Below are positions 8,315 through 27,238 of a stretch of DNA of 28,731 bases, piece after piece. The position numbers and the translations under genes are program-made. Location: the IMG/VR virus record IMGVR_UViG_3300025626_000100, positions 1 through 28,731 of that record; one strand, given 5' to 3'. Each line of letters starts with the position of its first letter. Position 1 is the stretch's first letter. Below the pieces are notes generated by a model. The model had not been told where the DNA came from. It ran no database searches and saw nothing but the letters and a program-made list of their open reading frames with translations. This DNA comes from a virus.

Positions 8315-11300
8315 ATGAATATAAATAACAACTTTATTGGGTCCAGAATGAACAAGAGTCTGGACGAAAGACTTATACCTCAGGGTGATTATATAGACGC
8401 ATTAAACATTAGAATATCTTCCGATGAAGACGGGGAGTCTGGTTCTCTTGAGAATGCGAAAGGTAACGAATTAGTTACCTCTTTGACTTATAACTCATCA
8501 CCACTTGTTGATGCGACGTGTATTGGGGCTTTTGAAGACGGTGAGCAGGAAACTATCTACTGGTTTGTAACTAGCCCTACGGTGGATATGATAGTATCAT
8601 ATAACTTCAACAATTCAACATTAATATACCACATTATCAGTACGGATGTTTTAAACTTTTCTACTGACTTCAGGATTGAATCTATAAACCTTATAGATGA
8701 TTTATTGTTTTTTACAGACAATTTAAACCCTCCAAGAAAGATAAATACTAAGAGGTCTTATCCAAGACCTATAACAGGGCAGGATCAAATAACTGAGGAT
8801 GATATATCTGTTATTGTTAAGCCACCCATTGAAGCCCCTGGGGTTGGGTTAGTAGAAACAGCTTCAACTCAGAATTATATTGAGGATAAGTTCGCTAGGT
8901 TCTCCTATAGGTATAAATATAAAGATGGAGAATATTCTGCTTTGTCTGAATTTTCTGACATTGCTTTTTTACCAGGTGTTTTTGAATTAGATTTCGGGAA
9001 CTACGATATGACTGGAATGAGGAATAGGTTTAACTCTGCTAACGTTTCATTTAACACAGGATCAAAGCATGTAATTGGAATTGATGTTTGTTTTAAGCTA
9101 TCAAACTCTAACGTAGTCCATATAATTGAAAAGTTTGATAAAGCAGAAGAGGGGTGGGGTAACAATGAAGTTAAGAGTGTACAATTTAGTAATCAAAAAA
9201 TATTCACAACACTGCCAGAGTCTGAACTATTAAGACTGTTTGACAATGTGCCAAAGCTAGCCAAGGAACAAACGTTAATGGGTAATAGAATTATGTATGG
9301 AAACTATACTGATGGGTATGATATCGATACTAACATTGATTACAGTTTAAGTCTTGTCTCTGAACTTATAGGTGATTCTGCATTAACAACAACTCATTTT
9401 TATAATGCAGACACTAATGAAACAGGATTTACGGTAGACCTTGATGGTTTAGAGTTAGTTCAAGGATTAAATTTATTTATAGATTTGAATATTCTCCACG
9501 TTAAGTTTGTAGGAGATCCAAATTACCCCATGACACCTGAGAATGACGTACAAGAAAATTGGTCATTTCAGCTCCCAAGAGATTATACTTCCGTTCAGGA
9601 TTTAGTAACTAGTACCGAGTGGAATGAGGCCATAGAATTAACAGACTTATGGACCAACACTGCTGACGGGGACAGCATGACTGACGTGTGGTTTACTGCT
9701 ATAACAGCAGCTAATGGGTGGGATAAGGTAGATGGCACTCGTGGTAGTGGCCCATACTCGGTTAACCAAGAAATAGAGACTACTTACTCAGGCACTGTAA
9801 TTACATTCGATATACCAGGGGTTAGGTATGAATCAGGCCCTGGTGTAACACCTTATGCTAGTGAGTTTTTTGAAAATTCAGTTACAGTGGCAAATGTTTT
9901 TGATGACACTACATCAAAAAGCCTCCATAGCAATAGAGATTATGAGGTAGCTATAGAGTATCTAGATGAGTATGAGAGAGCCTCTACGGCACTTGTTAGT
10001 ACAGCGAACAGTATATACGTGGGATCTGAACTATCTACTTTTCAGAATAAAATAAAGGTAACCCTAAACAGTCTTGCTCCAAGCTGGGCTAGCAGATATA
10101 GGTTTGTTTTAAAACCTAGTAAGGGTGATTACGAGACTATATACTCTAGGTTCTACTATCAAAGTATAAACGATGGTGGTGCTTGGTGGATTAGGCTTGA
10201 AGGAGATAATCAAACAAAGGCAAAGGTTGGGGATACATTAATAGTTAAGGCAGATTCAAGTGGACCTGCCCCAAGATATATTGAGACTAAAGTACTAGAT
10301 CTACAGGCCTTACCTTATAATGATGCGGAGAGAATAGAGGGAAATCATCCGGCTGGGTTATATATGAAGTTAAGGGCTACTAATTTCTCAATCTCTAGTG
10401 ACCCTGAAAATGAAAGAATATCTAGAACAGCTGATACTCGTCGTTCAAATTCAAACGCTGTATTGTGGATGTCTGAACTAGTAGACCCAGATGTCCCTGG
10501 TGTTTACCAACAAATAGCTATACCTGCTGGAGCTAAAGTGTCTTTTAGTTGCAACGCTTATACCTTTGGGACTTACGGGTATGAGTATGTGTTTAACGGA
10601 GAGTTTACAGCTCAAAATGATTATGATAATATAGGTCAATTTATAAATGGTGAGAACATAACTTTTTCGCCACCAACCGTAAATAGTGGTATGGGTAGCC
10701 CTGCTGATGGAGATGAGAACAGGTTCAAGTGGTTCTCTGCCGTGGGTGACTCCAATAATTTATATCAGGGGTCTGTTGTTGCTACACCTATTACACCAGA
10801 ATACAGTGGGCGTGGTAGAAATACTGACGTAACTCCTGTAGAGAGGGAGATGCAGATGAAGTATTACGAGAATCCTGCCGACCCAACACTGAGCTGGTTA
10901 ATGCTAACAAATAATAGTAACGGAAGCGGAGGTAGACCGGCAACGGCTATATTAAGAGTTGAAATTGAAAGACCTGGAGATATACTTGTTTTTGAGACTA
11001 AACCAGAGGAAATAGCTGGGGAGATATACTACCAAAGCAGCAAGAGTTACCCTATACAGTCAATAAAAAATAGTAATATAGGTCTATACGGTGTAACTGT
11101 TTCAGCAGCTGAGACAAATCAACAGACTATAGAGTATACAACACCAGCAACACCAGGGGTTGAAAGTGAAGTAAGGACTACCACGATAACACCAGGTGGG
11201 CCATCTTTTTTATTTGAGGCTGTAGTAGGTAGTGTCAGCTTATTGACAACGCCTTTATCACCTTCAAACATAACCATACAATTACTCAACTCTCCAACAT

Positions 11301-14300
11301 ACACTGGAGATGTGCCTACCCTTGGTCACTACGGAAACGTGTCTAATCAGTCCTCTACAGAGCCAGCAGTTATTGATTTAGAATTGTATAACTGTTTCTC
11401 ATTTGGAAATGGAGTTGAGAGCTTCAAAATAAACGATGGGTTTGCAACACCAGGGTTTCGCATAGGGGCTCGTACTACGGCTGTTTCTTTAGAAGACTAC
11501 AAAGAGGTTAACAGATACTTCGATATAACATATAGTGGTGTATATAACCAACAAACGAACATAAACAAGCTAAATGAGTTCAATTTAGCACTAGGAAATT
11601 ACAAGAGCTTAGAGGCTTCATTTGGACCTATAAACAAGCTACACGGAAGACAAACAGATATATTAGTTCTTCAAGAAGACAAAATATCATATGTTTTAGC
11701 TGGAAAGAATTTATTATCTGATGCTGCTGCAGGAGGGGCTATAACGTCTATTCCTGAGGTTTTAGGTACACAGATAGCTAGAACTGAAGAGATCGGAATA
11801 AGTAATGACACCGCTAGCTTTGCTACGGAATCTGGGGATGTATTCTTTACAGACTCAAAGAGAGGAATGGTATTAAACCTTAAGGGTGGATCATACCAAG
11901 GAGAGTCGTTGAATATTATCTCTACATTAGGTATGAGATCTTGGTTCAGGGATGAATTTTCAACTGGTTTTAATAAAATAAAACTTGGTGGATTTGATCC
12001 ATACATGAATGAGTATGTACTAACTTTTGGTGATTATGAAAGACCACTACCCCCTCTATTAGTAGGGTGTGGCACAGAATTATCTTACCAAGATAGATCC
12101 ACACCTGTGACATTTAATGTACAGTTAAATGATTCAATAGGAGATGTAAATACTGACTATAACTTTACCTCTGGGGCTGGTAATATTACCATTGTTTATA
12201 ACGGTATTGAAATTGTAAATGCAGACGTAACTGGGAGCGGTCAATTATCTTTCAATAAAGACATAATAGGACTAAACGAATGTACTGTTACTGTAACACC
12301 AAGTGAAGAATCTAGCTTTACTATTAACGCAAACTGTATTGCAGATAAGTCGCTTACTATTATTCATATTGTCAAAAATACCGACGAGATGGATGAGAAG
12401 ATTATACACCATGAGTACCAATGGGCTAGCGGAACATATTCTTCTCCAGTATACCAACAAGAGATTACTTTCGATGAAGGTCCGGTATCATATTATCGAT
12501 CCACAACTGGTATAGTATCACAGGGTGAATTCCCTGTTGAGGGATCTACAATAAGGCTAAGATACGCCCCTCAAATTGGTGACACCGCATCATGGGAGGC
12601 AGATAGATTCCAGTATCACTTATCTGATACACTTTATACTGAGTCTGAGATAGACTTATTAAAACCTTTATTAACTACTATTCCTGAGGTACCGTCATCT
12701 AACCCTGTAAATGTTCAGGGTGAATTCACTTATAGTAATCCTACCTCAAAACAATACTTATATTTAGTGTATGACTATGTGTCTCCAGTTATAGAGTGTG
12801 GTGTAGCTGTAAATACTACAGCCGCAGGAACAGGGGCTTATGAGATGAGATCAGATTTAGGAACAGATATAGGGTTCGTAACGGTTGCTTTTGATGGTTA
12901 TAACACACCGACTAGGCTTCAGTTAGTCTATGATGGCAGTATTGTAGCAGATTCACTATTTATTGGCGATGTGTTGCCAGACGCTACTCAAGAGGGACTG
13001 ATAACATCTTTATCAACGCTTGATACGTATAACTATAACGGATCTACTTATGACCTCTCTAATTCAGAATCGGTAACTTATACATCAGCAGATATAGCCG
13101 TATCAGATGGATCTGAACTAAGATCTAGTGGAGACGGTACGGGACAAACAGGTGTTGTTGCAGATTTCCCTTCACCAACGGCAAAAGCCTCAGACGGGAG
13201 TGTAAAGTTAAAGTTCTTAAAATCAACATCACTACCTACAGAAATGACAATAAGAGTCATAACGGCAAATGGTACTAACAACTGGAGCATGAATGGTGTT
13301 ACTTGTCCTTCAAGAGCACAAGTTCCTGATGATCAATTTGAGTGTACAAAGGCACCATTAGTAACGCCAGATGTGGCAGGTTTCTGGAACTTGAATTCAG
13401 ATATTGGCGTGGATACAGGTGCTGTTGTAATAACTATGAGACCTAAAGACGTTACAGATACATTAGGATCGATAGTCGAATATAATGGGGTAACATATAA
13501 CACATTTGTTAGTGATTTTGACGGAACTCATAAGTCAGATACTGATGGCAACTACACATGGGTAGGTGCTACAATTCCTTCAAGCCCACAGGTTAGGGAT
13601 GAGTACACGTTTGATAATGGTTCTTTTGTAGATACAGGGAACGATGTTAGTCAAGTAGTAGCTGCTGGAGATGTTTCAACATCAAACTTCCCGGTTGGAT
13701 CTACTACAAGACCTAATTACACTATAGTAATACCAAAAATTGAAACTAACATAGAGGCTCTAGACTTTAAGGTATTTAGTGACACAGAAACAGATATGAT
13801 AGTTAGATGTCCAAGATTGCTAGATTCAGTTCAAGTAGACGGTCCGTATGAGTTTCCTGACACTGCAATAAACCCACCAGGGGTAGTGTTTAGAGAATTC
13901 TTTACTGTTCACAAGAGTGGTATTGGTACTTCACTACCTGTTTATGTTCCAATTTCAGATGACCCTATATTACATTGCGAGCAATTATTTTTAGACGCAA
14001 ATGGTATACAAACACTGCAGAAGGGGTATTACTATACAAATGATATAGAGACACCTCCTGAGTTTACTAATCAAGACCAATATAAGATTATATATGTAGA
14101 TGATTGGGGAACAGCTTATTACTACACACCAGAGGAAGTAACAACAGAATGCTCTGGAGGTATGGATGTAGCCTTTATTATGGATTATACAGGAAGCATG
14201 TCAGATGAAATAGAAACATTAAAATCTGGTTTTGCAAGCTTAATTAATACTATAGACAGTTCATCTGGAGAAAACAACTATAGACTTTCTATTGTTACAG

Positions 14301-14890
14301 CAGATGAAAGAGATGGTTTCCCATTAGTTCCATCTTATAATTCTTGTACAGAATACACAAGCCTACCTTCCGCACAAAAATTAAATTATGCAGGTAGCAA
14401 TAACCATCAATTATTTATTACTGCTTGGGAAATGTTCCAAGATAATAATGCAACAACTGCTACAACTCAATTAAACTTATTAAATGGTGGCGGAGCATCA
14501 CCATGCGTTCAAATGGGTGATGGAGGTAGTACTGGACCTGAATGTACAGATCAAGCTATAAGTAGAGTGTTGAGTTACGATTTTGTAAACGCATGGAGAT
14601 CTAATGTTGCTAAATATATTATTGTTGGTACAGATGTACCAGCAGGTGGTGATGATGGAATTTTTGACGAAAGTGATTGGATATTTATTCAATCGTTAGC
14701 AGCTACAGCTATAAGTCAAGGAGTTAAGATATTTATCCTAGGACAAGGTGTTGATTATCCTTATACAACTTCATCCGGACAAGGTGTTTATCCTTGGAGA
14801 TATTTAGCTACTCAAACAGGTGGTGATTGGAATAATACCTTTGATACCACAACTATAAATAACCAAATAATAGCAGCTTGTGGCTCATAA
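8315..14890 (+). CDS. Giant tail (muzzle/fibre-like) protein with C-terminal von Willebrand A domain
   Basis: A 2191-aa tail protein. The N-terminus (NKSLDERLIPQGDYIDALNI) is a motif I recall from large tail proteins of marine and crAss-like podoviruses, followed by beta-rich sequence to about residue 1250. The conserved-looking end of this body includes ISYVLAGKNLLSDAAAGG and LGGFDPYMNEYVLTF near residue 1224. From about 1252 the protein has segments headed by Cys (C1252, C1495, C1677), two of which share the pattern of SDLGTDIGFVTV and SDIGVDTGAVVI. From about 1947 to the end is a vWA domain with a complete MIDAS: D1957-Y-T1959-G-S1961, T2078 (CTDQAI) and D2107 (VGTD). Such domains bind proteins through a divalent metal, so this end may contact the host surface. 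The long body would sit under the connector; muzzle-like identity is inference. Confidence 0.8.
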   Translation: MNINNNFIGSRMNKSLDERLIPQGDYIDALNIRISSDEDGESGSLENAKGNELVTSLTYNSSPLVDATCIGAFEDGEQETIYWFVTSPTVDMIVSYNFNNSTLIYHIISTDVLNFSTDFRIESINLIDDLLFFTDNLNPPRKINTKRSYPRPITGQDQITEDDISVIVKPPIEAPGVGLVETASTQNYIEDKFARFSYRYKYKDGEYSALSEFSDIAFLPGVFELDFGNYDMTGMRNRFNSANVSFNTGSKHVIGIDVCFKLSNSNVVHIIEKFDKAEEGWGNNEVKSVQFSNQKIFTTLPESELLRLFDNVPKLAKEQTLMGNRIMYGNYTDGYDIDTNIDYSLSLVSELIGDSALTTTHFYNADTNETGFTVDLDGLELVQGLNLFIDLNILHVKFVGDPNYPMTPENDVQENWSFQLPRDYTSVQDLVTSTEWNEAIELTDLWTNTADGDSMTDVWFTAITAANGWDKVDGTRGSGPYSVNQEIETTYSGTVITFDIPGVRYESGPGVTPYASEFFENSVTVANVFDDTTSKSLHSNRDYEVAIEYLDEYERASTALVSTANSIYVGSELSTFQNKIKVTLNSLAPSWASRYRFVLKPSKGDYETIYSRFYYQSINDGGAWWIRLEGDNQTKAKVGDTLIVKADSSGPAPRYIETKVLDLQALPYNDAERIEGNHPAGLYMKLRATNFSISSDPENERISRTADTRRSNSNAVLWMSELVDPDVPGVYQQIAIPAGAKVSFSCNAYTFGTYGYEYVFNGEFTAQNDYDNIGQFINGENITFSPPTVNSGMGSPADGDENRFKWFSAVGDSNNLYQGSVVATPITPEYSGRGRNTDVTPVEREMQMKYYENPADPTLSWLMLTNNSNGSGGRPATAILRVEIERPGDILVFETKPEEIAGEIYYQSSKSYPIQSIKNSNIGLYGVTVSAAETNQQTIEYTTPATPGVESEVRTTTITPGGPSFLFEAVVGSVSLLTTPLSPSNITIQLLNSPTYTGDVPTLGHYGNVSNQSSTEPAVIDLELYNCFSFGNGVESFKINDGFATPGFRIGARTTAVSLEDYKEVNRYFDITYSGVYNQQTNINKLNEFNLALGNYKSLEASFGPINKLHGRQTDILVLQEDKISYVLAGKNLLSDAAAGGAITSIPEVLGTQIARTEEIGISNDTASFATESGDVFFTDSKRGMVLNLKGGSYQGESLNIISTLGMRSWFRDEFSTGFNKIKLGGFDPYMNEYVLTFGDYERPLPPLLVGCGTELSYQDRSTPVTFNVQLNDSIGDVNTDYNFTSGAGNITIVYNGIEIVNADVTGSGQLSFNKDIIGLNECTVTVTPSEESSFTINANCIADKSLTIIHIVKNTDEMDEKIIHHEYQWASGTYSSPVYQQEITFDEGPVSYYRSTTGIVSQGEFPVEGSTIRLRYAPQIGDTASWEADRFQYHLSDTLYTESEIDLLKPLLTTIPEVPSSNPVNVQGEFTYSNPTSKQYLYLVYDYVSPVIECGVAVNTTAAGTGAYEMRSDLGTDIGFVTVAFDGYNTPTRLQLVYDGSIVADSLFIGDVLPDATQEGLITSLSTLDTYNYNGSTYDLSNSESVTYTSADIAVSDGSELRSSGDGTGQTGVVADFPSPTAKASDGSVKLKFLKSTSLPTEMTIRVITANGTNNWSMNGVTCPSRAQVPDDQFECTKAPLVTPDVAGFWNLNSDIGVDTGAVVITMRPKDVTDTLGSIVEYNGVTYNTFVSDFDGTHKSDTDGNYTWVGATIPSSPQVRDEYTFDNGSFVDTGNDVSQVVAAGDVSTSNFPVGSTTRPNYTIVIPKIETNIEALDFKVFSDTETDMIVRCPRLLDSVQVDGPYEFPDTAINPPGVVFREFFTVHKSGIGTSLPVYVPISDDPILHCEQLFLDANGIQTLQKGYYYTNDIETPPEFTNQDQYKIIYVDDWGTAYYYTPEEVTTECSGGMDVAFIMDYTGSMSDEIETLKSGFASLINTIDSSSGENNYRLSIVTADERDGFPLVPSYNSCTEYTSLPSAQKLNYAGSNNHQLFITAWEMFQDNNATTATTQLNLLNGGGASPCVQMGDGGSTGPECTDQAISRVLSYDFVNAWRSNVAKYIIVGTDVPAGGDDGIFDESDWIFIQSLAATAISQGVKIFILGQGVDYPYTTSSGQGVYPWRYLATQTGGDWNNTFDTTTINNQIIAACGS

Positions 14891-18463: not shown

Positions 18464-21400
18464 ATGAAAGAATTATACGATAATCTTTTTAAATCAGGCG
18501 ACTATACAAAGTCGTTTGAAGAGTTTGTTAATCAATTTGGTGACACAGAAAAATCCAAGGTTTTATACAACGCACTAAACGAATCAGGTGACTATACAAA
18601 ATCATTTGAAGAGTTTGTTGTTCAGTTTGGATTCGGTGAAAAAAAAAAGACAACCGACACCTCAAGTTCTACTTTGGAGACGGAAGATATGGTTTCCACT
18701 ACAGAAGAGGATCCAACAGATGGGTCCTTGGATTCTTCAGAAGTACCTGAAATATCAATACCTCAAGTAACTACACCAGAGGTTGAGGATGATTACGAGT
18801 ATTTAAAAGATGACTTTTTAAAACTTGAAGAAATTGAGACAGCCTCTACTCAAACTTTTACTCCAGGAGCCTCTGCTAGAGCTAGGGCTATGCGAGAAAA
18901 AAACAGAGAAGTAGACCCTATATTAAAAAGTAAGTTATTATCTGACTACAACATTTCTAGCGCTCTAGAATTTAATATCATAAACGACAGAACATTAGAG
19001 GCTGCATTAAAGGGAAATAAAAATGCCTTAAAAACTATACAAAGCTTATCTAGAAAAAGAAAAGAGGAATACCTACAAGAGATACAACAAAAAAGACTAG
19101 ACAAAGAAAACGCCTACGAAGATTCATCTAATCTTAACGCATATGAGATTACGGAAGATGAAAAAACAAAAAAAGATCAGGCAGTAAAAAAAGTCAATGA
19201 TTTTAATAAAGAGACAGAAAGACTCTTAAGTCAAATAGAAAAGCCTACAGAAGAACAGTTAAATGAAATATTCCAAAGGGATGGTGCTCCAACCGAAGAG
19301 GAGTTTGAATTAGCTGAAGACAGTCTCACACCAACTGGTTTTGAAGACTCTGATATTGATGATATGTACGATAGTCAAAAGCTAAAAAACATAAAAGGTT
19401 TTAACGCTAAGGACTTTGATGGATATCTTTCAGAAATGGGTTACGTAGAAAAATACCAACAACTACTGGAAGATGAAGTAGTTTCAGAAGATGGTAGGTT
19501 TTATGATATAAGCGGTAATTACAATCCAAAATTAGCTGCCGAAAGATTAAAGTTTCAGTACCTATCAAATTATATTAATGACAAGGTAGAGAGAAAAGTA
19601 GAATCTCAAATATTAAAGTATCAAGCTGAAAACGACGGTAGACATCCTTCATTTGATGGTGTAAAAATAGATTTTAGCACTGGATTAGATGACAAAGCGA
19701 TATCTTCATATGTAGAGGAACAATTCCCTACATTGACAGCTTATTTAAAAGACAGAGATAGAGAGAATCAAAAAAACTACCAAGAATACTTGAATGGTGA
19801 AAACCCTTGGGTGACCCAATCTGTAAAACAAGGTTGGAGATCAGTAGAAGATAGAATATCTACCACCTCAGAAGGTGTTTATGAATTCATAGGAATGAAT
19901 AATACCGCTGATGAAATAAGAATGAGCGCTGCTCAAACAGAACTAGAAAGAGACGACTTCATGAGGTATACATATGCCTCTGGTAAAAAGGCCACTATAG
20001 ATGGAAGAGAATATGGGATTGATGAAAGAGGTCAAATATATGATCTTCAAATAAAGAAAAACGTAACACAAGTTCTTACAGAAGGTCAAGAAGAATCCAT
20101 AAGAAAAAAAGTTGAGGGCAGTGATGAAACTTTTAAAAGTTTTAGTGGTGCAGGAGCTGTAATAGCAACCTCTGGAATAGTAAGTGATATGATCTTGCAA
20201 ATAGCCTTAACACGTGGTGTGGCAAACTTAGGAGCTGGAGGATCAGCTTTTTTAGGTGCTTTCGACAAAGGTTCTAAGGTTTTAAATGTGCTTAGTAAAA
20301 TACCTATGAAGGCTAATGTAGCTTCAGCTATGATAGCACAGGGTACTTTGTTTGGAACAAACATGTCAAGTGATGCATATAAAAAAGCTATAGAAAATGG
20401 TGTTGATCAAGAGACGGCTGAAGAAATAAGACAGTTAGCATCTAGACAAGGTTATGCACTAGGAGCGTTAACAGCACCTATATCTACACAAATTACTGCA
20501 ATGAACAAAATATTTGGAGAACAAGGTTCTAAAAAAATAAGTGAATCAGTTGTGAGGATATACCAAGAGAGTGGTAAAAAAGGTGTTAATGCTTATTTTC
20601 AAAAAATAAGACAAAATATAATACAAAATTACCCTGTATACTTTAGAGAGAGTGGAAAGGAAATGTTCCAAGAGAACGTTCAACAAGTTGGGCAGGCTTT
20701 TATAATAGCTGACAATGTAAATGAACTGGCTGGTAAAGAGATTATGATGAACACCATAACAGGTGCGGAATATACTAATACTACTATTCTAGCTGGTATG
20801 GCAGGTTTATTAATTCCTTTTGGAGGAGATTTAACGTCATCTACAGGTAGCAGTTTAAAGGCTTCATTTAGACCTGGTGAAGCAGCTATAGATAGAATGG
20901 AAGCGTTGCATGCGTTGTCTAGAAACCCTAAAAAAACAAAAGAGGTTTTAGATAGCATGGTAAAAAAAGGTGTTTATAGTCAAGAACAAGTTAATAATAT
21001 AATATCAGATGTAGATGTTTATTCTAAAAACATAGGAAGAATACCACCTAACCTTACACCTGAAACTTCTTTGAAGGTAATGGGTTCTTTAGAAAAAATA
21101 AACCAATTAGAAGAGCAGAAAAAAAATCTGGACAAGTCATTTCATTCGGATATAGATAAAAAAATACAGGACATAAGATCTCAGGTAACAAAAGCGACTG
21201 AGTTTGATTATGTAAACATAAAAGGAAAAACAAAGTTAAAAGAGGAAGCAGGTAAGCAATTGACTAAAGAAGCTGAAGATAGAGGAGAGAAAGACTTCAC
21301 TATTGCAGATAGCGCTATAACAGAAAGAGCTATTGATAACTTTAGTAAGATGACAATTGAAGAGAAGCTTTCATATACAGATATTCAAGATGCCATTCAA

Positions 21401-24400
21401 AAGCAAGAAACGGAAGTAGATAGAAAAAGTAGAATAGATAGCGCTCCAAAAATATTTGGTAAATCTCATACTGATAAAAAACTACCTTATGGTAGAGCTG
21501 TTATCGCTGATATAACAAGTCCAGATTCTAAGGGTGTACAAACAGCTAAGTATAATAATCCTCAGACAGGAGAGTTAGATGTTATTGTAAGTAGTAGTGG
21601 TGATTCTGCTAATTTTGTTGGTTTCACGAGAGTTTACGAGAATGGAAAACCTACAAATAGGTTTACCGCTAAAATGGAGTCTACTGGAGATGCTTTTAAA
21701 AACATGATTACCGAGGCGGAAAACGCCTTGCCAGACGGAGCGGAAGTAGTAGAGACAACCACTATATCTATAGGTGGTTTAAAAACATACAACAAATCTA
21801 AAACCTTAAATGAAAAGGTGGATTCAGATGGAAATGTTGTCACAAAAACAACAAGGTACAGCGATGCAACACAGCAATCTGTAAAAGAAAAAGGTAACGA
21901 ATCAGCTTTTAGTTCTTTCCGAACTAATGACAAAACTAAAGCTGAGGCTGAGGTTGAGAAAATTAAAGAAGCTTACCCAGGAATTGAGGTTAAAATAAAA
22001 ACACAAGGATCAAAGAGGGGTAAAAAAACTTATACTATAGATATAGAGTTGCCAGTTTTAGTTAAAACAGATGCTAAACCAGCCGAAGGTGTACAAGAAG
22101 TGGAAACAGAAGTACGGGTTACTCCTGAGCAAGAAACGGAAGTAGAGAGTCCAATAAAGGATAATCTACAAGAGAACGAAACTATTGTTCAAACTAGAAA
22201 AGATAGTAAAGGTCGAGTATTCACTACCACTAAACAAGAATCCGTAAGAGAACGTGATGGATTAAAAACTACTAAGTTTAAGTTTAACAGAGACGATAAA
22301 TCAACCGACCAAAGAAACGATGCTTTTGCTCCTGAGGACGTAGCATTAGCAGGAACTAACCTTGAGATTAACCCTGAAGATAGATTAAACCTTCAAGAAG
22401 GTGAGACAGCTACTTATGAGATAAGTGAAATAAGAGAGGGCGATACAGGAGTAAACGCTTCGGTAAAGTTTACAACAACTGATGCTGATGGGAACCAAAT
22501 AGGCAGCTTTCAAGGTGATGTGACATTGGTTGAAACAACTGTAGCTCCCCCAACTAAGCCAGAGACTAAAAGGTTTCAAGATGACCAAGTTGTTTTAAAA
22601 GAAGAAACATTTACTATAACCAATGAAGATGGTAGTAGAGAAGAGGTAATTGTAAAAACATACTTAGATGGCTCCTTTGGTACAGGTGCAAGAGTTAAAA
22701 GGTTTGATTCAAATGGAGAGCTTATTGAAGATACAGGTGGATTTTTCCAAAAACTTGCAGACAATGATATAGTTGTTAGAGATGGAATAACCGCTGAACA
22801 GCAAGTGGAATTTATTTATGCACCTGGTGAAGAGGTCTTTGAAAAGACATCAGAGAGAAGTGGTAATGAAATAAATAACCCTAAAAAGACAGCACAATTA
22901 ACAACTGAACAAAAACAGAAGTTAGGTATAGAAACCAAGAAAGATGAGAGTGAACAAACAGTATCTGAAATAGATGAAGTAACGGTCACTGAAGAGAAAG
23001 TAGTACCAGCTGGTAAGAGGTTGTTTAACAACCCCAACCCTGAGACTACAGAAATATCTAAGAAGTACAAGAAAGATAGAAACAACAAAACACCTGATGG
23101 TGAGCCAATAACATCTATTGACAAAGATAATTCCAGAGAAATTGCTGACGTGTATGAGTCGCTAGAAGACTCGCCTAATGATCCAAAGGTTCAAGAGGCA
23201 TACTCATTAATGGCAGATGAAACAGCGGCACAACACCAAGAGATTATTGACGCAGGATACGAGGTTGAGATCTGGAATGGAGAAGGTGAGCCTTACGCAA
23301 ACGCTCAAGAAATGATTGACGATGTTCGTGACAATAAACACATGTGGATATACTCAACTGAGGCCGGCTTTGGGGATACCGCAATAACAGAAGAACAAAG
23401 ACAACAAAATAAATTACTACAAGATTCTGGTTTCAAGGACAAGAACGGCAACACTTTACTATACAATGACTTGTTTAGATTTGTGCATGACTTCTTTGGA
23501 CACACAGAGAGAGGTAATGGTTTCGGACCTGTTGGTGAAGAGAACGCATGGGACGTACACTCAAGAATGTATACACCATTAGCTAGGAGAGCTATGACTA
23601 CCGAGACAAGAGGTCAGAATAGTTGGGTTAACTTTGGCCCTAAAATGAGAAACAAAAAGGGAGAGTTAATAAAAAAAGGGGAAGAAGGATATCTTTCTCC
23701 TAAAGACAGACCTTTTGCTCCTCAAAAAATGGCGCTAATGCCAGGGAAGTATTCAGAGATGTTACCTGAAAAACAAGAGGATATTGATAAGAGTGAACAG
23801 ACTCAGACACAAAAAGATCCTACCAAAGCACTTGAAAAAACAAAGAAAGACTTTGAACAAAGCGAACAGGCTCTAAAAGATAGGGTCAAGAAGCCAACGC
23901 TTAAAGAAAGAACAAGAATATTAAGGGAAAAAATATTTGATAGACAGACCAGAGTAAAAGATCTGCTAAAGGGTGTTGGAAACAAGCAAGCAACGAAAGC
24001 TAAAAACCTTTTAGTAACAAAGGCTGGTGCAACTGGTTTTGCTAACTTTAGATTTAAGAAAGCTGATGAAAAAATATACAAGGGATTAAAAGATCAAGAT
24101 CTAAAAACCCTAGACCATATCATATACCTACGAAGATTAAAAGCTATAAACGAAAACAGGAAAGCTCAAGGCAAGGAACCTTACGTGGGTATTAATGATA
24201 CTGATTACGATACGGCTGTTGCTGCTCTTAAAGGTTATGAAAATGAACTTGGAGATAAAAAGTACAAAGATTTTTCATCAAGAGCAGATACGTATTTTGA
24301 GGCAATGAACGAGAGTTTGACTAGGATGAAAGACAGTGGATTAATATCTGAAGAAGTTTTCAATCAGTTAAAAGATATTGACTACTCCCCTATAAAGACT

Positions 24401-26644
24401 TTAGACTATATAATACCAGATAATGCGGACGCAGCTGAAATAGACAGAATGGCCGAAATATCAGGCATAAAAGCAGATGTAATAAAAACACTTAGTGATA
24501 AAAACTTGAAGGACATTATAATGGACACTAAATGGTTGTTATCATCTAACCTAGGAATGATTGAAGCTAAAGTTTTTGAAAATAAAATGCTCAATGCTTT
24601 TAGCGAAGCTGTTGAGTCTGCTGAAGGAGACGTTAAGACTGAGATAGAAAATTATGTATTACCTAACCCTGTAACAGGGGAAACAAAAGACGGTAAGCCA
24701 AAGAGAAAATATGATAAAAAGACTCCCCCTGGTTTTACAAAAGTACACTTCAAGAAAGATGGAGTCGACAAATATATGGTAATAGACAATGCTTATGCAA
24801 ATCAGTTACTAGATATAAAATCTAACTCAAGAATAAATCTTGGAAATGTAGGTAAATTAACAGGGACTAATATTTTAAGATTCACTGCAACATCTGGTAA
24901 CCCTTTATTTATTGTAGGTAACACAGCTGTAGATTTTGCTAACATATTATTATTATCTGATGTATATTCCAATAATAAGTTTAAAGGAGGAGCAGAACTT
25001 GCTTTTGATTTTGTAAAAACATTTGGATCTAAAGTAGGAGGTACAAAGGAATACAAAAAGATATACGAAGAGTTTATGGAGCATGGCGGTGCAATGGACT
25101 ACCTATCTACAGATGGTTTAAAAGCAATAGGAGGACGTGGTAAAGCTAGATCCGCTGCTGGAAAAGCTTTTCAAAGTTATGGAAATTTCATGTCTTACCT
25201 AGGTGAAACTTCTGAGGTATCATTTAGGGTGGCTGTATATTCTAAGGTTAAAAATAATTTACTAAAAGACTTTGAAAAAGAAAATGGTAGAGATCCAAGT
25301 AAAGAAGAAGTGGAAGACATTATGAATGAAGCCGTTAGAGAAGCTAGAGAAACCATTGACTTCAGTCAAGGTGGCTCTATAGTAAAAGCTGCTGATAAGG
25401 TTTTACCATACCTAAACGCAGGAACTCAAGGTCTTAGAAAAGCTGTGGATTATGCGGCAAAAAATCCAAAGGGGTTTGCTTCTAGTATGTTACAGGCCAT
25501 GATAATGGCAGGAGGAGCTAGTGCAGCATCAATGTTTATGCTTCTTAGAAGTTTTGGTGATGATGAGGATCCTGAAAAAGTACTGGAAGTACTGAATTCA
25601 ATAAGTGACTACGAAAAATCAAATTACCACATACTATTCACTGGGGAAAAGGATGAGAACGGTGAACACAGATACATAAGAGTAAAAAAATTACCTACAA
25701 TAGGTATAGCTTCAACCATTGCTGAACAGTTAACAATAAAAGCAATACTAAAAAGTAGAGGTATTGATTATGATTTAAATGATGAGGCTTTGAAAAAATC
25801 CGCAAGCGGTATATCACCTATAGATGTATCTCAAGGTTTACCAGGTTTAATAAACAGAAACCCACTTGCTGCGGCAACTCTAACTTATAGATATAACTAT
25901 GATCATTTTTATGGTCAGGAAGTGTTCAAAGGGCCTAGAAACAAGAAGATACTACCATCAGCTGAGGGATTGCTAGACGACAGAGTTGATCAGATATACA
26001 AAGACTTAGGTCAAGCTTTTGGGTTTTCACCAAAAAGAAGCAAGGCTGCTGTTGAAAAAATAATAACATCAGAAAAAACAAACCCTTCTATAGGACTTGT
26101 ATATTCAGTATACGACAAAATGAGGGGAGTAGTTGGAGAAACCCCTACAAATAACGAAATAGATAATGTTATGAGTAGGATAGTCAAAAATACAGAAAGA
26201 AAGTTAGTTAGATCAACCAATAAAAAACTATTGAGCTATAAAGAGCAGGATGAAATCAAAGAACTTGAAACTAAGTTAGAAACGGGGATATATTTAAAAG
26301 AGAAGCAGGCTTATAATGATATAAGAAAGAGATACGAAAATAACGATCCATTTACTAATGAAGAGTTTAAGAAATACATATTAGATAACTTTCCTAGGTT
26401 GGATGCTAAAAAGTACGCTAAAAAATATGTAGCATATATCAAAAATATGAATGGTGACAGATCAATACTAGATATAGTATTTGAAGATACCCCAGAGGTT
26501 CAGGCTTATAGAATATACAAGAAGTTTGGTGACAGCTTTGATGAAGATGAAAAGAAAGAAATTATAAAAGTATTTAAAGCTTCAAGAAGAAAGTTTTCAA
26601 AAAAAGCTCTATACATATATAACCAAAAGTACAGAAAGAAGTAG
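18464..26644 (+). CDS. Giant polyvalent internal virion protein
   Basis: A 2726-aa protein closing the late block. Residues 1-62 hold two copies of a motif (GDYTKSFEEFVNQF and GDYTKSFEEFVVQF). Residues 62-130 are acidic, then come helices. About 560-690 is a Gly/Ala-rich hydrophobic region (SGAGAVIATSGIVSDMILQI) like membrane-active parts of ejection proteins. About 1005-1145 has a beta-rich module (TTTISIGGLKTYN), followed by further beta-rich Glu/Thr segments to 1510. About 1516-1770 is a highly conserved-looking module with H1675-D-F-F-G-H1680 and TTETRGQNSWVNFGP, a possible metal site. About 2135-2370 resembles large polyvalent protein domain LPD38 (NPLFIVGNTAVDF, TIDFSQGGS, VLPYLNAGTQG). 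The C-terminus is basic. The likely role is an ejected multifunctional protein acting early in infection; enzymatic function is not established. Confidence 0.75.
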   Translation: MKELYDNLFKSGDYTKSFEEFVNQFGDTEKSKVLYNALNESGDYTKSFEEFVVQFGFGEKKKTTDTSSSTLETEDMVSTTEEDPTDGSLDSSEVPEISIPQVTTPEVEDDYEYLKDDFLKLEEIETASTQTFTPGASARARAMREKNREVDPILKSKLLSDYNISSALEFNIINDRTLEAALKGNKNALKTIQSLSRKRKEEYLQEIQQKRLDKENAYEDSSNLNAYEITEDEKTKKDQAVKKVNDFNKETERLLSQIEKPTEEQLNEIFQRDGAPTEEEFELAEDSLTPTGFEDSDIDDMYDSQKLKNIKGFNAKDFDGYLSEMGYVEKYQQLLEDEVVSEDGRFYDISGNYNPKLAAERLKFQYLSNYINDKVERKVESQILKYQAENDGRHPSFDGVKIDFSTGLDDKAISSYVEEQFPTLTAYLKDRDRENQKNYQEYLNGENPWVTQSVKQGWRSVEDRISTTSEGVYEFIGMNNTADEIRMSAAQTELERDDFMRYTYASGKKATIDGREYGIDERGQIYDLQIKKNVTQVLTEGQEESIRKKVEGSDETFKSFSGAGAVIATSGIVSDMILQIALTRGVANLGAGGSAFLGAFDKGSKVLNVLSKIPMKANVASAMIAQGTLFGTNMSSDAYKKAIENGVDQETAEEIRQLASRQGYALGALTAPISTQITAMNKIFGEQGSKKISESVVRIYQESGKKGVNAYFQKIRQNIIQNYPVYFRESGKEMFQENVQQVGQAFIIADNVNELAGKEIMMNTITGAEYTNTTILAGMAGLLIPFGGDLTSSTGSSLKASFRPGEAAIDRMEALHALSRNPKKTKEVLDSMVKKGVYSQEQVNNIISDVDVYSKNIGRIPPNLTPETSLKVMGSLEKINQLEEQKKNLDKSFHSDIDKKIQDIRSQVTKATEFDYVNIKGKTKLKEEAGKQLTKEAEDRGEKDFTIADSAITERAIDNFSKMTIEEKLSYTDIQDAIQKQETEVDRKSRIDSAPKIFGKSHTDKKLPYGRAVIADITSPDSKGVQTAKYNNPQTGELDVIVSSSGDSANFVGFTRVYENGKPTNRFTAKMESTGDAFKNMITEAENALPDGAEVVETTTISIGGLKTYNKSKTLNEKVDSDGNVVTKTTRYSDATQQSVKEKGNESAFSSFRTNDKTKAEAEVEKIKEAYPGIEVKIKTQGSKRGKKTYTIDIELPVLVKTDAKPAEGVQEVETEVRVTPEQETEVESPIKDNLQENETIVQTRKDSKGRVFTTTKQESVRERDGLKTTKFKFNRDDKSTDQRNDAFAPEDVALAGTNLEINPEDRLNLQEGETATYEISEIREGDTGVNASVKFTTTDADGNQIGSFQGDVTLVETTVAPPTKPETKRFQDDQVVLKEETFTITNEDGSREEVIVKTYLDGSFGTGARVKRFDSNGELIEDTGGFFQKLADNDIVVRDGITAEQQVEFIYAPGEEVFEKTSERSGNEINNPKKTAQLTTEQKQKLGIETKKDESEQTVSEIDEVTVTEEKVVPAGKRLFNNPNPETTEISKKYKKDRNNKTPDGEPITSIDKDNSREIADVYESLEDSPNDPKVQEAYSLMADETAAQHQEIIDAGYEVEIWNGEGEPYANAQEMIDDVRDNKHMWIYSTEAGFGDTAITEEQRQQNKLLQDSGFKDKNGNTLLYNDLFRFVHDFFGHTERGNGFGPVGEENAWDVHSRMYTPLARRAMTTETRGQNSWVNFGPKMRNKKGELIKKGEEGYLSPKDRPFAPQKMALMPGKYSEMLPEKQEDIDKSEQTQTQKDPTKALEKTKKDFEQSEQALKDRVKKPTLKERTRILREKIFDRQTRVKDLLKGVGNKQATKAKNLLVTKAGATGFANFRFKKADEKIYKGLKDQDLKTLDHIIYLRRLKAINENRKAQGKEPYVGINDTDYDTAVAALKGYENELGDKKYKDFSSRADTYFEAMNESLTRMKDSGLISEEVFNQLKDIDYSPIKTLDYIIPDNADAAEIDRMAEISGIKADVIKTLSDKNLKDIIMDTKWLLSSNLGMIEAKVFENKMLNAFSEAVESAEGDVKTEIENYVLPNPVTGETKDGKPKRKYDKKTPPGFTKVHFKKDGVDKYMVIDNAYANQLLDIKSNSRINLGNVGKLTGTNILRFTATSGNPLFIVGNTAVDFANILLLSDVYSNNKFKGGAELAFDFVKTFGSKVGGTKEYKKIYEEFMEHGGAMDYLSTDGLKAIGGRGKARSAAGKAFQSYGNFMSYLGETSEVSFRVAVYSKVKNNLLKDFEKENGRDPSKEEVEDIMNEAVREARETIDFSQGGSIVKAADKVLPYLNAGTQGLRKAVDYAAKNPKGFASSMLQAMIMAGGASAASMFMLLRSFGDDEDPEKVLEVLNSISDYEKSNYHILFTGEKDENGEHRYIRVKKLPTIGIASTIAEQLTIKAILKSRGIDYDLNDEALKKSASGISPIDVSQGLPGLINRNPLAAATLTYRYNYDHFYGQEVFKGPRNKKILPSAEGLLDDRVDQIYKDLGQAFGFSPKRSKAAVEKIITSEKTNPSIGLVYSVYDKMRGVVGETPTNNEIDNVMSRIVKNTERKLVRSTNKKLLSYKEQDEIKELETKLETGIYLKEKQAYNDIRKRYENNDPFTNEEFKKYILDNFPRLDAKKYAKKYVAYIKNMNGDRSILDIVFEDTPEVQAYRIYKKFGDSFDEDEKKEIIKVFKASRRKFSKKALYIYNQKYRKK
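18494..18630 (+). repeat. Two near-identical 47-base repeats encoding the SGDYTKSFEEF motif
   Basis: Copies at 18494-18540 and 18584-18630 are 90 bases (30 codons) apart and differ at only a few, mostly third-codon, positions. They encode SGDYTKSFEEFV-NQF and SGDYTKSFEEFV-VQF at the N-terminus of the 2726-aa protein, preceded in each case by a related LYDNLFK / LYNALNE segment. This is an intragenic tandem duplication. Confidence 0.9.
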
Positions 26645-26884
26645 GTGAGTAATCCAAGCTATTAATCCGTTAATATTTAACGCAACAAGATTCCACTGCT
26701 TCCTGGATGAGGTTTGGACAATTACAAAAATAAAACCAATGATATACAGAGCTGGTTCAATGGTCCACTGGGCGGCGATAAGAAAACCGCTGCCCATGTA
26801 TCCCACTCTAGAAGCTACTTTTTGGTATGATGTTAGTCTGTTAGTGTATGCGAGCTTCTTTAGAAACCATCTCTTGTAATTCAT
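26609..26884 (-). CDS. Small membrane protein, unknown function
   Basis: A 91-aa protein with a basic N-terminus (MNYKRWFLKKLAYTNRL) and two to three hydrophobic segments: about residues 28-36 with 40-55 (IEPALYIIGFIFVIVQ) and about 70-91 (LIAWITHLLLSVLLVIYV). The frame is open upstream to an ATG at 26983, but ATG 26884 is preferred because it gives a positive-inside N-terminus and avoids antisense overlap with the zinc-finger gene. The last 36 bases overlap the 3' end of the 2726-aa gene in convergent orientation. A holin-like or superinfection-related role is possible but unsupported. Confidence 0.6.
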   Translation of the reverse strand: MNYKRWFLKKLAYTNRLTSYQKVASRVGYMGSGFLIAAQWTIEPALYIIGFIFVIVQTSSRKQWNLVALNINGLIAWITHLLLSVLLVIYV

Positions 26885-26899
26885 TGAAATAAAATTAAA

Positions 26900-27043
26900 A
26901 TGTGTAAACCAATTATAAAATGTAGTAGGTGTGGTGATTTGTTTTGTGGTGGATTCGAATATAGAATTCATTTTGATAAACACCTAGATGACTGGAGTAA
27001 ATCAAAAAACAAAAAAGAATACATTGAAAAAACAACGAAATAA
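26900..27043 (+). CDS. 47-aa C2H2 zinc-finger protein
   Basis: A 47-aa protein (MCKPIIKCSRCGDLFCGGF at the start) whose spacing matches the classical C2H2 finger at every position: C8-x2-C11-x3-F15-x5-Y21-x2-H24-x3-H28, followed by a short Lys-rich tail (SKSKNKKEYIEKTTK). The leader AAATAAAATTAAA before the ATG is like leaders of other genes in this window. It lies 15 bases from the divergent membrane gene and is the only + gene in this right-hand module, so it may be read from late read-through or an unseen promoter. A DNA- or protein-binding regulatory role is inferred from the fold only. Confidence 0.7.
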   Translation: MCKPIIKCSRCGDLFCGGFEYRIHFDKHLDDWSKSKNKKEYIEKTTK

Positions 27044-27067
27044 GTATAAAGATATGAGAGTGATAAT

Positions 27068-27238
27068 TTAACCCTCGCTTTCTTTAGTTAATTCAGCTAT
27101 AGCCTCTCCGTATCCAGGCATCTTCTTGATGGTCTCAAGGGTACCTATCGAAAGAGTTCTAACGTTTAAAAGCTCAGCAATTACAGCCTCAACTTTTTTA
27201 TCCAATAGATCTAATCTACTCTGTTTCTTTGTTTTCAT
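27068..27238 (-). CDS. 56-aa helical protein, unknown function
   Basis: Reads MKTKKQSRLDLLDKKVEAVI and continues with AELLNVRTLSIGTLETIKKM before ending TKESEG. The start overlaps the end of the dATP/dGTP-like gene by 23 bases on the same strand, with a good A-rich context, and the length and composition (helical, charged) are those of a small phage accessory protein. No family recognised. It is the last gene of the overlapping - strand series 28672 to 27068. Confidence 0.65.
   Translation of the reverse strand: MKTKKQSRLDLLDKKVEAVIAELLNVRTLSIGTLETIKKMPGYGEAIAELTKESEG

Follow-up and report, generated by a model that had tools for sequence, protein, structure and literature searches.

The window analysed here is a 28,731-nt stretch of viral DNA, and the gene under study, zinc-finger gene P0001, lies on its + strand at positions 26900–27043. 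This open frame of 47 codons plus stop translates to MCKPIIKCSRCGDLFCGGFEYRIHFDKHLDDWSKSKNKKEYIEKTTK followed by the stop, a protein of 47 residues. Residues 8–28 (26921–26983, + strand) form a C2H2 finger with C8, C11, H24 and H28 as ligands, and residues 32–46 (26993–27037, + strand) constitute a C-terminal element of the form W/F-x5-K-x2-Y-I-x2-T-T. An earlier note, made from the sequence alone, had described a stand-alone C2H2 finger that makes up nearly the whole protein of a bacteriophage. The translation bears this out for what is a Bacteroidota phage, with the complete C-x2-C-x3-F-x5-Y-x2-H-x3-H spacing at C8, C11, F15, Y21, H24 and H28. The opposite orientation that the note reported is likewise present, with the finger gene on the + strand and the surrounding genes on the - strand.

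The finger gene is flanked on one side by a gene for a 91-aa predicted membrane protein (26609–26884, - strand), which has at least 265 relatives in IMG/VR and stands outside the finger module. On the other side lies a gene for a 56-aa protein of unassigned function (27068–27238, - strand), and beyond it are genes for a dATP/dGTP-diphosphohydrolase N-terminal-like protein, a 91-aa protein and a metallophosphoesterase. The last late gene upstream, encoding a large protein of 2726 aa (18464–26644, + strand), is the nearest + strand gene and ends 255 nt before the finger gene, so late read-through is inferred to be the likeliest source of its mRNA. No promoter or terminator site for the finger gene rose above shuffle expectation, and a hairpin near 27055–27082 was no better than shuffles. 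Across the window as a whole, the Bacteroidota -7 motif TANNTTTG is overrepresented (47 copies vs 32.6 expected, with 1 of 100 shuffles as high), with no copy suitably placed upstream of the finger gene.

A Probable Insertion in the Window Lineage

The finger gene is held within a 183-nt stretch (26885–27067) that, in alignment with loci L002 and L015, separates two genes overlapping or abutting in relatives. The 56-aa and membrane-protein genes overlap in L015 and are 66 nt apart in L002, whose diphosphohydrolase-like protein is 97% identical to that of the window; the finger is absent from both. Among relatives of the membrane protein with a measurable gap, the upstream gene overlaps or lies at most 27 nt away, the exception being L002/L021 with 66 nt (one surveyed locus has no upstream gene). 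The finger gene is accordingly placed as morons are, as an extra gene between two genes adjacent in relatives. Absence of the frame from related phages had been named in the earlier note as evidence against the gene. Such absence was indeed found among relatives of the flanking genes, but we read it as recent gain or loss of a mobile gene rather than as absence of a gene in the window. Gain in the window lineage is the simplest reading of these sequences, and loss in other lineages is possible.

The window portal groups with those of Flavobacterium Elemovirus, Maribacter Panino and MW202828, its relatives being Flavobacterium, Maribacter and Cellulophaga phages. No finger match was found in the stretches examined of MW202828 (30 kb searched) and elemoC 14-1A (33 kb searched), nor in any of 23 related records, the window itself being the only positive control. 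Two further candidates at the locus were rejected. An N-terminal extension of the membrane protein across the finger, from a GTG at 26983, is at odds with the starts in L002 and L015, which lie near the position of the window's ATG; a blastn match of Cellulophaga phi4:1 to 26882–26920 is AT-rich noise. Separately, the 66-nt spacer of L002 (positions 660–730) has room to encode a very short hydrophobic peptide, RVKFFSWVFITLISFFIWKLLLKLI, with a stop codon that overlaps the start of the following gene; this spacer also has TTATCACTCTCATA in common with the edge of the window's insertion.

Homologues and Sequence Conservation

Searches with the single sequence detected no relatives: exact-peptide scans of viral and genome contigs gave no match, and tblastn gave nothing significant in 50,697 phage or 72,556 plasmid records (a tblastn match in L010 proved to be a cysteine-free protein and was dismissed as chance). 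The family came to light only through a degenerate C2H2 DNA pattern (C..CG..F.....Y..H...H) applied to IMG/VR, followed by profile scans. The pattern scan returned 51 stretches, 3 of which encode full-length relatives of the finger protein (L105 and L123, each 70% identical, and L106, 50%), the others being chance matches or C2H2 proteins of no relation to it. Profiles derived from the first relatives retrieved 32 loci and then 41 viral-contig loci, which amount to 28 distinct proteins with the window counted; the homologous loci are 49–70% identical. A profile scan of a bacterial and archaeal genome collection, using an 8-residue-pattern method that is not exhaustive, found no member, and within the limits of that method the family therefore appears to be phage-borne.

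Fifteen residues show no variation across the 29 distinct nucleotide cores, that of the window among them: C8, S9, R10, C11, G18, Y21, R22, H24, F25, H28, K38, Y41, I42, T45 and T46. F15 (28 of the 29 cores), D26, E31 and W32 are almost invariant. As its signature, the family has Ser-Arg separating the two cysteines, then YRxHF, and W/F-x5-K-x2-YI-x2-TT at the C terminus. Loss of the four ligands in homologues, which the earlier note had offered as a second way to refute the gene, was not observed, both cysteines and both histidines being kept in every homologue.

The rarity of C2H2 fingers in phages was overstated in that note: even a narrow scan of IMG/VR yielded 51 stretches, most of them from other, unrelated proteins. 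The pattern matches L105–L155 include many unrelated phage proteins with one canonical C2H2 finger, several of them fused to larger domains. Judged from such matches, single C2H2 fingers would be commoner in phages than is usually said. A Miz-1/CTCF-like finger is also reported in a fusion protein of Staphylococcus aureus kayviruses (PMC10127798), which gives C2H2-like fingers in phages a precedent.

Coding Potential and Selection

We considered whether the frame could have arisen by chance, with only the - strand transcribed at the locus and the finger motif a coincidence. Codon usage lends this some weight, the score of the finger gene (-0.09 per codon) being weak and, taken alone, indecisive between true genes (+0.39) and spurious frames (-0.41); the closest relatives of the flanking genes, moreover, have no finger frame. 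Of 300 dinucleotide-shuffled windows, 1 had a relaxed finger pattern within an open frame 47 codons or longer, and none had the canonical pattern. The strict pattern occurs a single time in the window, and 719 kb of related phage loci contain no other copy.

Against a chance frame stand the full-length homologues at 41 loci and their mode of divergence. Median dN/dS is 0.20 over 215 pairs of the family (0.156/0.918 for the window against L156), and nucleotide differences fall mainly at third codon positions (6137 vs 3733 and 2091). The window copy keeps all 15 of the invariant residues despite a dS to its relatives of 0.6 to saturated. Because of these homologues, the purifying selection and the retained residues, we conclude that the gene is real and under selection on the + strand. 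The homologues rule out a chance frame, to which we attach next to no probability, and the observation of a real, conserved single-finger gene is confirmed. Standard annotation overlooks this gene even though it is strongly conserved and tightly placed within operons.

Gene Neighborhoods of the Relatives

In the relatives, the finger gene is co-directional with its neighbors, with a start codon that in most cases touches or overlaps the stop of the gene before it. In group A, it follows a gene for an SF2 helicase (phrog_16), whose stop overlaps the finger ATG (TAATG) and whose relatives are found in Flavobacterium Fpv20-type and Bacteroides phages. In group B, the gene order is a 172-aa gene, the finger, GroES, the terminase large subunit (phrog_6681) and the portal (phrog_6547), the last matching Cellulophaga phi17:2 and, weakly, crAss001, a member of Crassvirales. 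In group C, the finger precedes a DNA polymerase (phrog_1252 in L179, with a similar polymerase in L212 and L216). Elsewhere, the finger follows an ATP-dependent DNA ligase (L170) or, as recognized by sequence inspection rather than by profile, a lytic-transglycosylase-like gene (L223 and L224).

For groups A and B, the indicated hosts are Bacteroidota. BLAST detected no gene common to the carrier loci and the window, and the window's portal and terminase fragment had no significant direct BLAST match to their group B counterparts, although both portals fall within phrog_6547. The carriers are several unrelated phages, distant relatives of crAss-like phages among them, and the finger gene is best read as horizontally mobile among phages without detectable common genes.

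These neighborhoods bear on the possibility that the protein is an accessory subunit of the phage replication or recombination machinery, a partner of helicase, polymerase or ligase that would bridge these enzymes to DNA. In three contexts, start/stop overlaps place the finger beside genes for an SF2 helicase, a DNA polymerase or a DNA ligase, as would be expected of such a subunit, and the recurrence of DNA-metabolism neighbors also suits a nucleic-acid-binding role more generally. However, the finger also occurs in GroES–terminase–portal and lytic-enzyme contexts, its neighbor differs each time, and no replication gene lies near it in the window. We consider such a replication role unlikely, at a little under one chance in five.

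Predicted Structure and Surface

AlphaFold2, supplied with 21 members, predicts two short strands, a helix at residues 18–34 and a second helix at residues 38–45, with a mean pLDDT of 89 (about 90 for the finger); a single-sequence model has the identical beta-beta-alpha core. The protein thus combines C2H2 ligand spacing and F/Y core positions with a predicted beta-beta-alpha fold, and zinc binding is inferred from sequence and model together. Foldseek neighbors are mostly C2H2 fingers, the majority DNA-binding, with a TM score normalized to the query of about 0.5; none is a significant match (E > 1 for these neighbors and above 0.4 for every hit), as expected for a 47-residue domain. The "basic tail" of the earlier note corresponds to the predicted second helix and is therefore better described as a conserved structural element. 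It is basic only in the window: the net charge of the shared core averages -0.15 across the family (sd 2.3), reaching down to -5, as against +3 in the window. A conserved hydrophobic stripe of F25, L/I/M29 and W32, taken with Y41 and I42, suggests packing of this second helix on the first.

The earlier note had proposed a small DNA-binding regulator at the junction of late and accessory transcription; as a sequence-specific regulator, the finger and basic tail would bind an operator there and switch transcription. The canonical finger fold, the mostly DNA-bound Foldseek neighbors and the charge of the window member favor this proposal, and DNA binding is known for single fingers that have basic arms. 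The residues of the finger helix count against it. With classical helix numbering (H24 = +7), positions -1, +2, +3 and +6 read [GSNTA], [FLYW], D/E (G in one) and [MWIL] in all 28 distinct proteins, examples being G-F-D-M, S-L-D-W, N-Y-D-W, A-F-D-M and T-L-D-W. Classical DNA-reading fingers carry polar or basic residues at these four positions, a set that the family does not display; Arg, Lys, Asn, Gln and His are absent from +2, +3 and +6 throughout. Because its base-reading positions are instead hydrophobic or acidic in nearly every member, base reading is disfavored, and DNA binding by the family is likewise disfavored on sequence grounds, with the qualification that the helix-position argument derives from classical multi-finger proteins and that single fingers can bind nucleic acid otherwise. 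A family charge of about 0 also speaks against an operator-binding protein, as does the junction itself, which is peculiar to the window phage; elsewhere the gene sits inside co-directional operons beside very different genes. A DNA-binding regulator is consequently doubtful, although it retains an appreciable share of the probability. Overall, the finger surface looks better suited to gripping a protein than to reading DNA.

Comparison with Known Families

The family shares with classical C2H2 fingers (Pfam PF00096 / PF13894) the arrangement C-x2-C-x3-F-x5-[hydrophobic]-x2-H-x3-H and the predicted beta-beta-alpha fold. Unlike them, it has an invariant SR between the cysteines, YRxHF in the helix, an added C-terminal helix and a helix face that is not of the DNA-reading type. 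PF00096 matched 9 of 21 relatives weakly (best E 0.008). The window protein had no match in Pfam, PHROGs or NCBIfam, its relatives had nothing significant in PHROGs (best E 0.024), and PADLOC found no defense-system match. PF24071 (Phage FDXHR zinc-binding domain), likewise a phage zinc-binding family, matched 1 of 4 members scanned at E 0.061, below significance and the curated cut-off. Ros/MucR-type regulators resemble the family in their prokaryotic use of C2H2 zinc coordination; they are larger DNA-binding proteins with different Cys-His spacing, and they gave no match. The finger family would, on these comparisons, lie outside every catalogued family tested.

Phage precedents for small zinc proteins are available. 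Lambda Ea8.5 is an accessory protein with a homeodomain/zinc-finger fold (PMC4195576); it differs from the window protein in its fused homeodomain and in its origin from a lambdoid prophage region rather than a Bacteroidota phage, and the searches made found no similarity between it and the family. Com of phage Mu is, like the window protein, a small, stand-alone phage zinc finger, and it activates translation of mom mRNA (PMC6483171). Com thereby provides a precedent for an RNA-binding or translational regulator, as would a small ribosome-bound C2H2 protein. Profile matches to small C2H2 proteins in ribosome-type PDB entries (6skg_Bo and 9qf4_Bk) and of one member to phrog_6417, "translational regulator" (E 0.41), lean the same way, but all are non-significant, the charge of the family is neutral to acidic, and no significant PDB, Pfam or PHROG match supports homology to Com. 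We regard a role on RNA as improbable.

A detached homing-endonuclease finger, left behind by a mobile intron or HNH element, was also considered. In L146, C2H2-like fingers stand beside an HNH-like stretch, and homing endonucleases of T4-like and Vibrio phages match residues 3–26 of one member below threshold. These matches have E values of 0.6–10, with no significant profile match to any endonuclease finger, whereas the C-terminal half of the family is specific to it and invariant, and no nuclease was recognized directly adjoining the gene in most inspected loci. Such an origin is very improbable.

Proposed Function

We propose that the finger protein is a zinc-stabilized mini-domain, composed of a beta-beta-alpha C2H2 finger with a lengthened helix and, after it, a second, short helix that carries the invariant K..YI..TT, and that it would act as a protein-binding adaptor rather than as a sequence reader of DNA. 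The putative docking surface would combine the hydrophobic/acidic face of the finger helix (residues 17, 19, 20 and 23) with the stripe R22, F25, D26, L/I/M29 and W32 and with the second helix. Since both the carriers and the adjacent gene vary (helicase, polymerase, ligase, GroES–terminase, lytic enzyme), an adjacent phage gene product is unlikely to be the partner. A single partner met by all carrier phages would fit better, most simply a component of Bacteroidota host transcription, replication or repair. In this reading the window copy is an isolated, moron-like cargo insertion, probably expressed by + strand late read-through.

A mobile, zinc-stabilized protein-binding mini-domain that docks on a common host factor is, in our judgment, the best explanation of the sequences and models, held with a confidence that stops somewhat short of even. 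The nearest solved folds, mostly DNA-binding C2H2 fingers though without a significant Foldseek match, count against it, and its chief rivals are a DNA-binding regulator and an accessory role at the replisome. The wider proposal, that these are uncatalogued mobile phage mini-proteins in which a eukaryote-like C2H2 finger and a C-terminal helix seize a conserved Bacteroidota host factor, is more tentative. It does not follow from the presence of a C2H2 finger that a phage protein is a DNA-binding regulator. If the adaptor model holds, the predicted rigid zinc module of 47 residues, simple to produce and conserved across these phages, could be used as bait to find a host protein targeted during takeover, in a phylum where genetic tools are scarce.

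Additional Features of the Window

Relatives of the 91-aa membrane protein (L003, L019, L020, L024, L071 and L080 among them) have a strongly conserved core, YQKxASRxGYMGxGFxIAxQWT, and some carry an N-terminal CxxC...CxxC extension that the window copy does not have; the protein had no match in 50,697 named phage records. At 8315–14890 (+ strand), the window encodes a virion-type protein of 2191 aa with a von Willebrand A-type-looking stretch at its C terminus (VAFIMDYTGSMSDEI...), and its matches to MW202828 and Elemovirus are limited to about the first 1490 residues. The 2726-aa protein is of polyvalent type, with mycobacteriophage and cyanophage matches at residues of about 1530–1790 and Cellulophaga and Maribacter phage matches in its C-terminal third.
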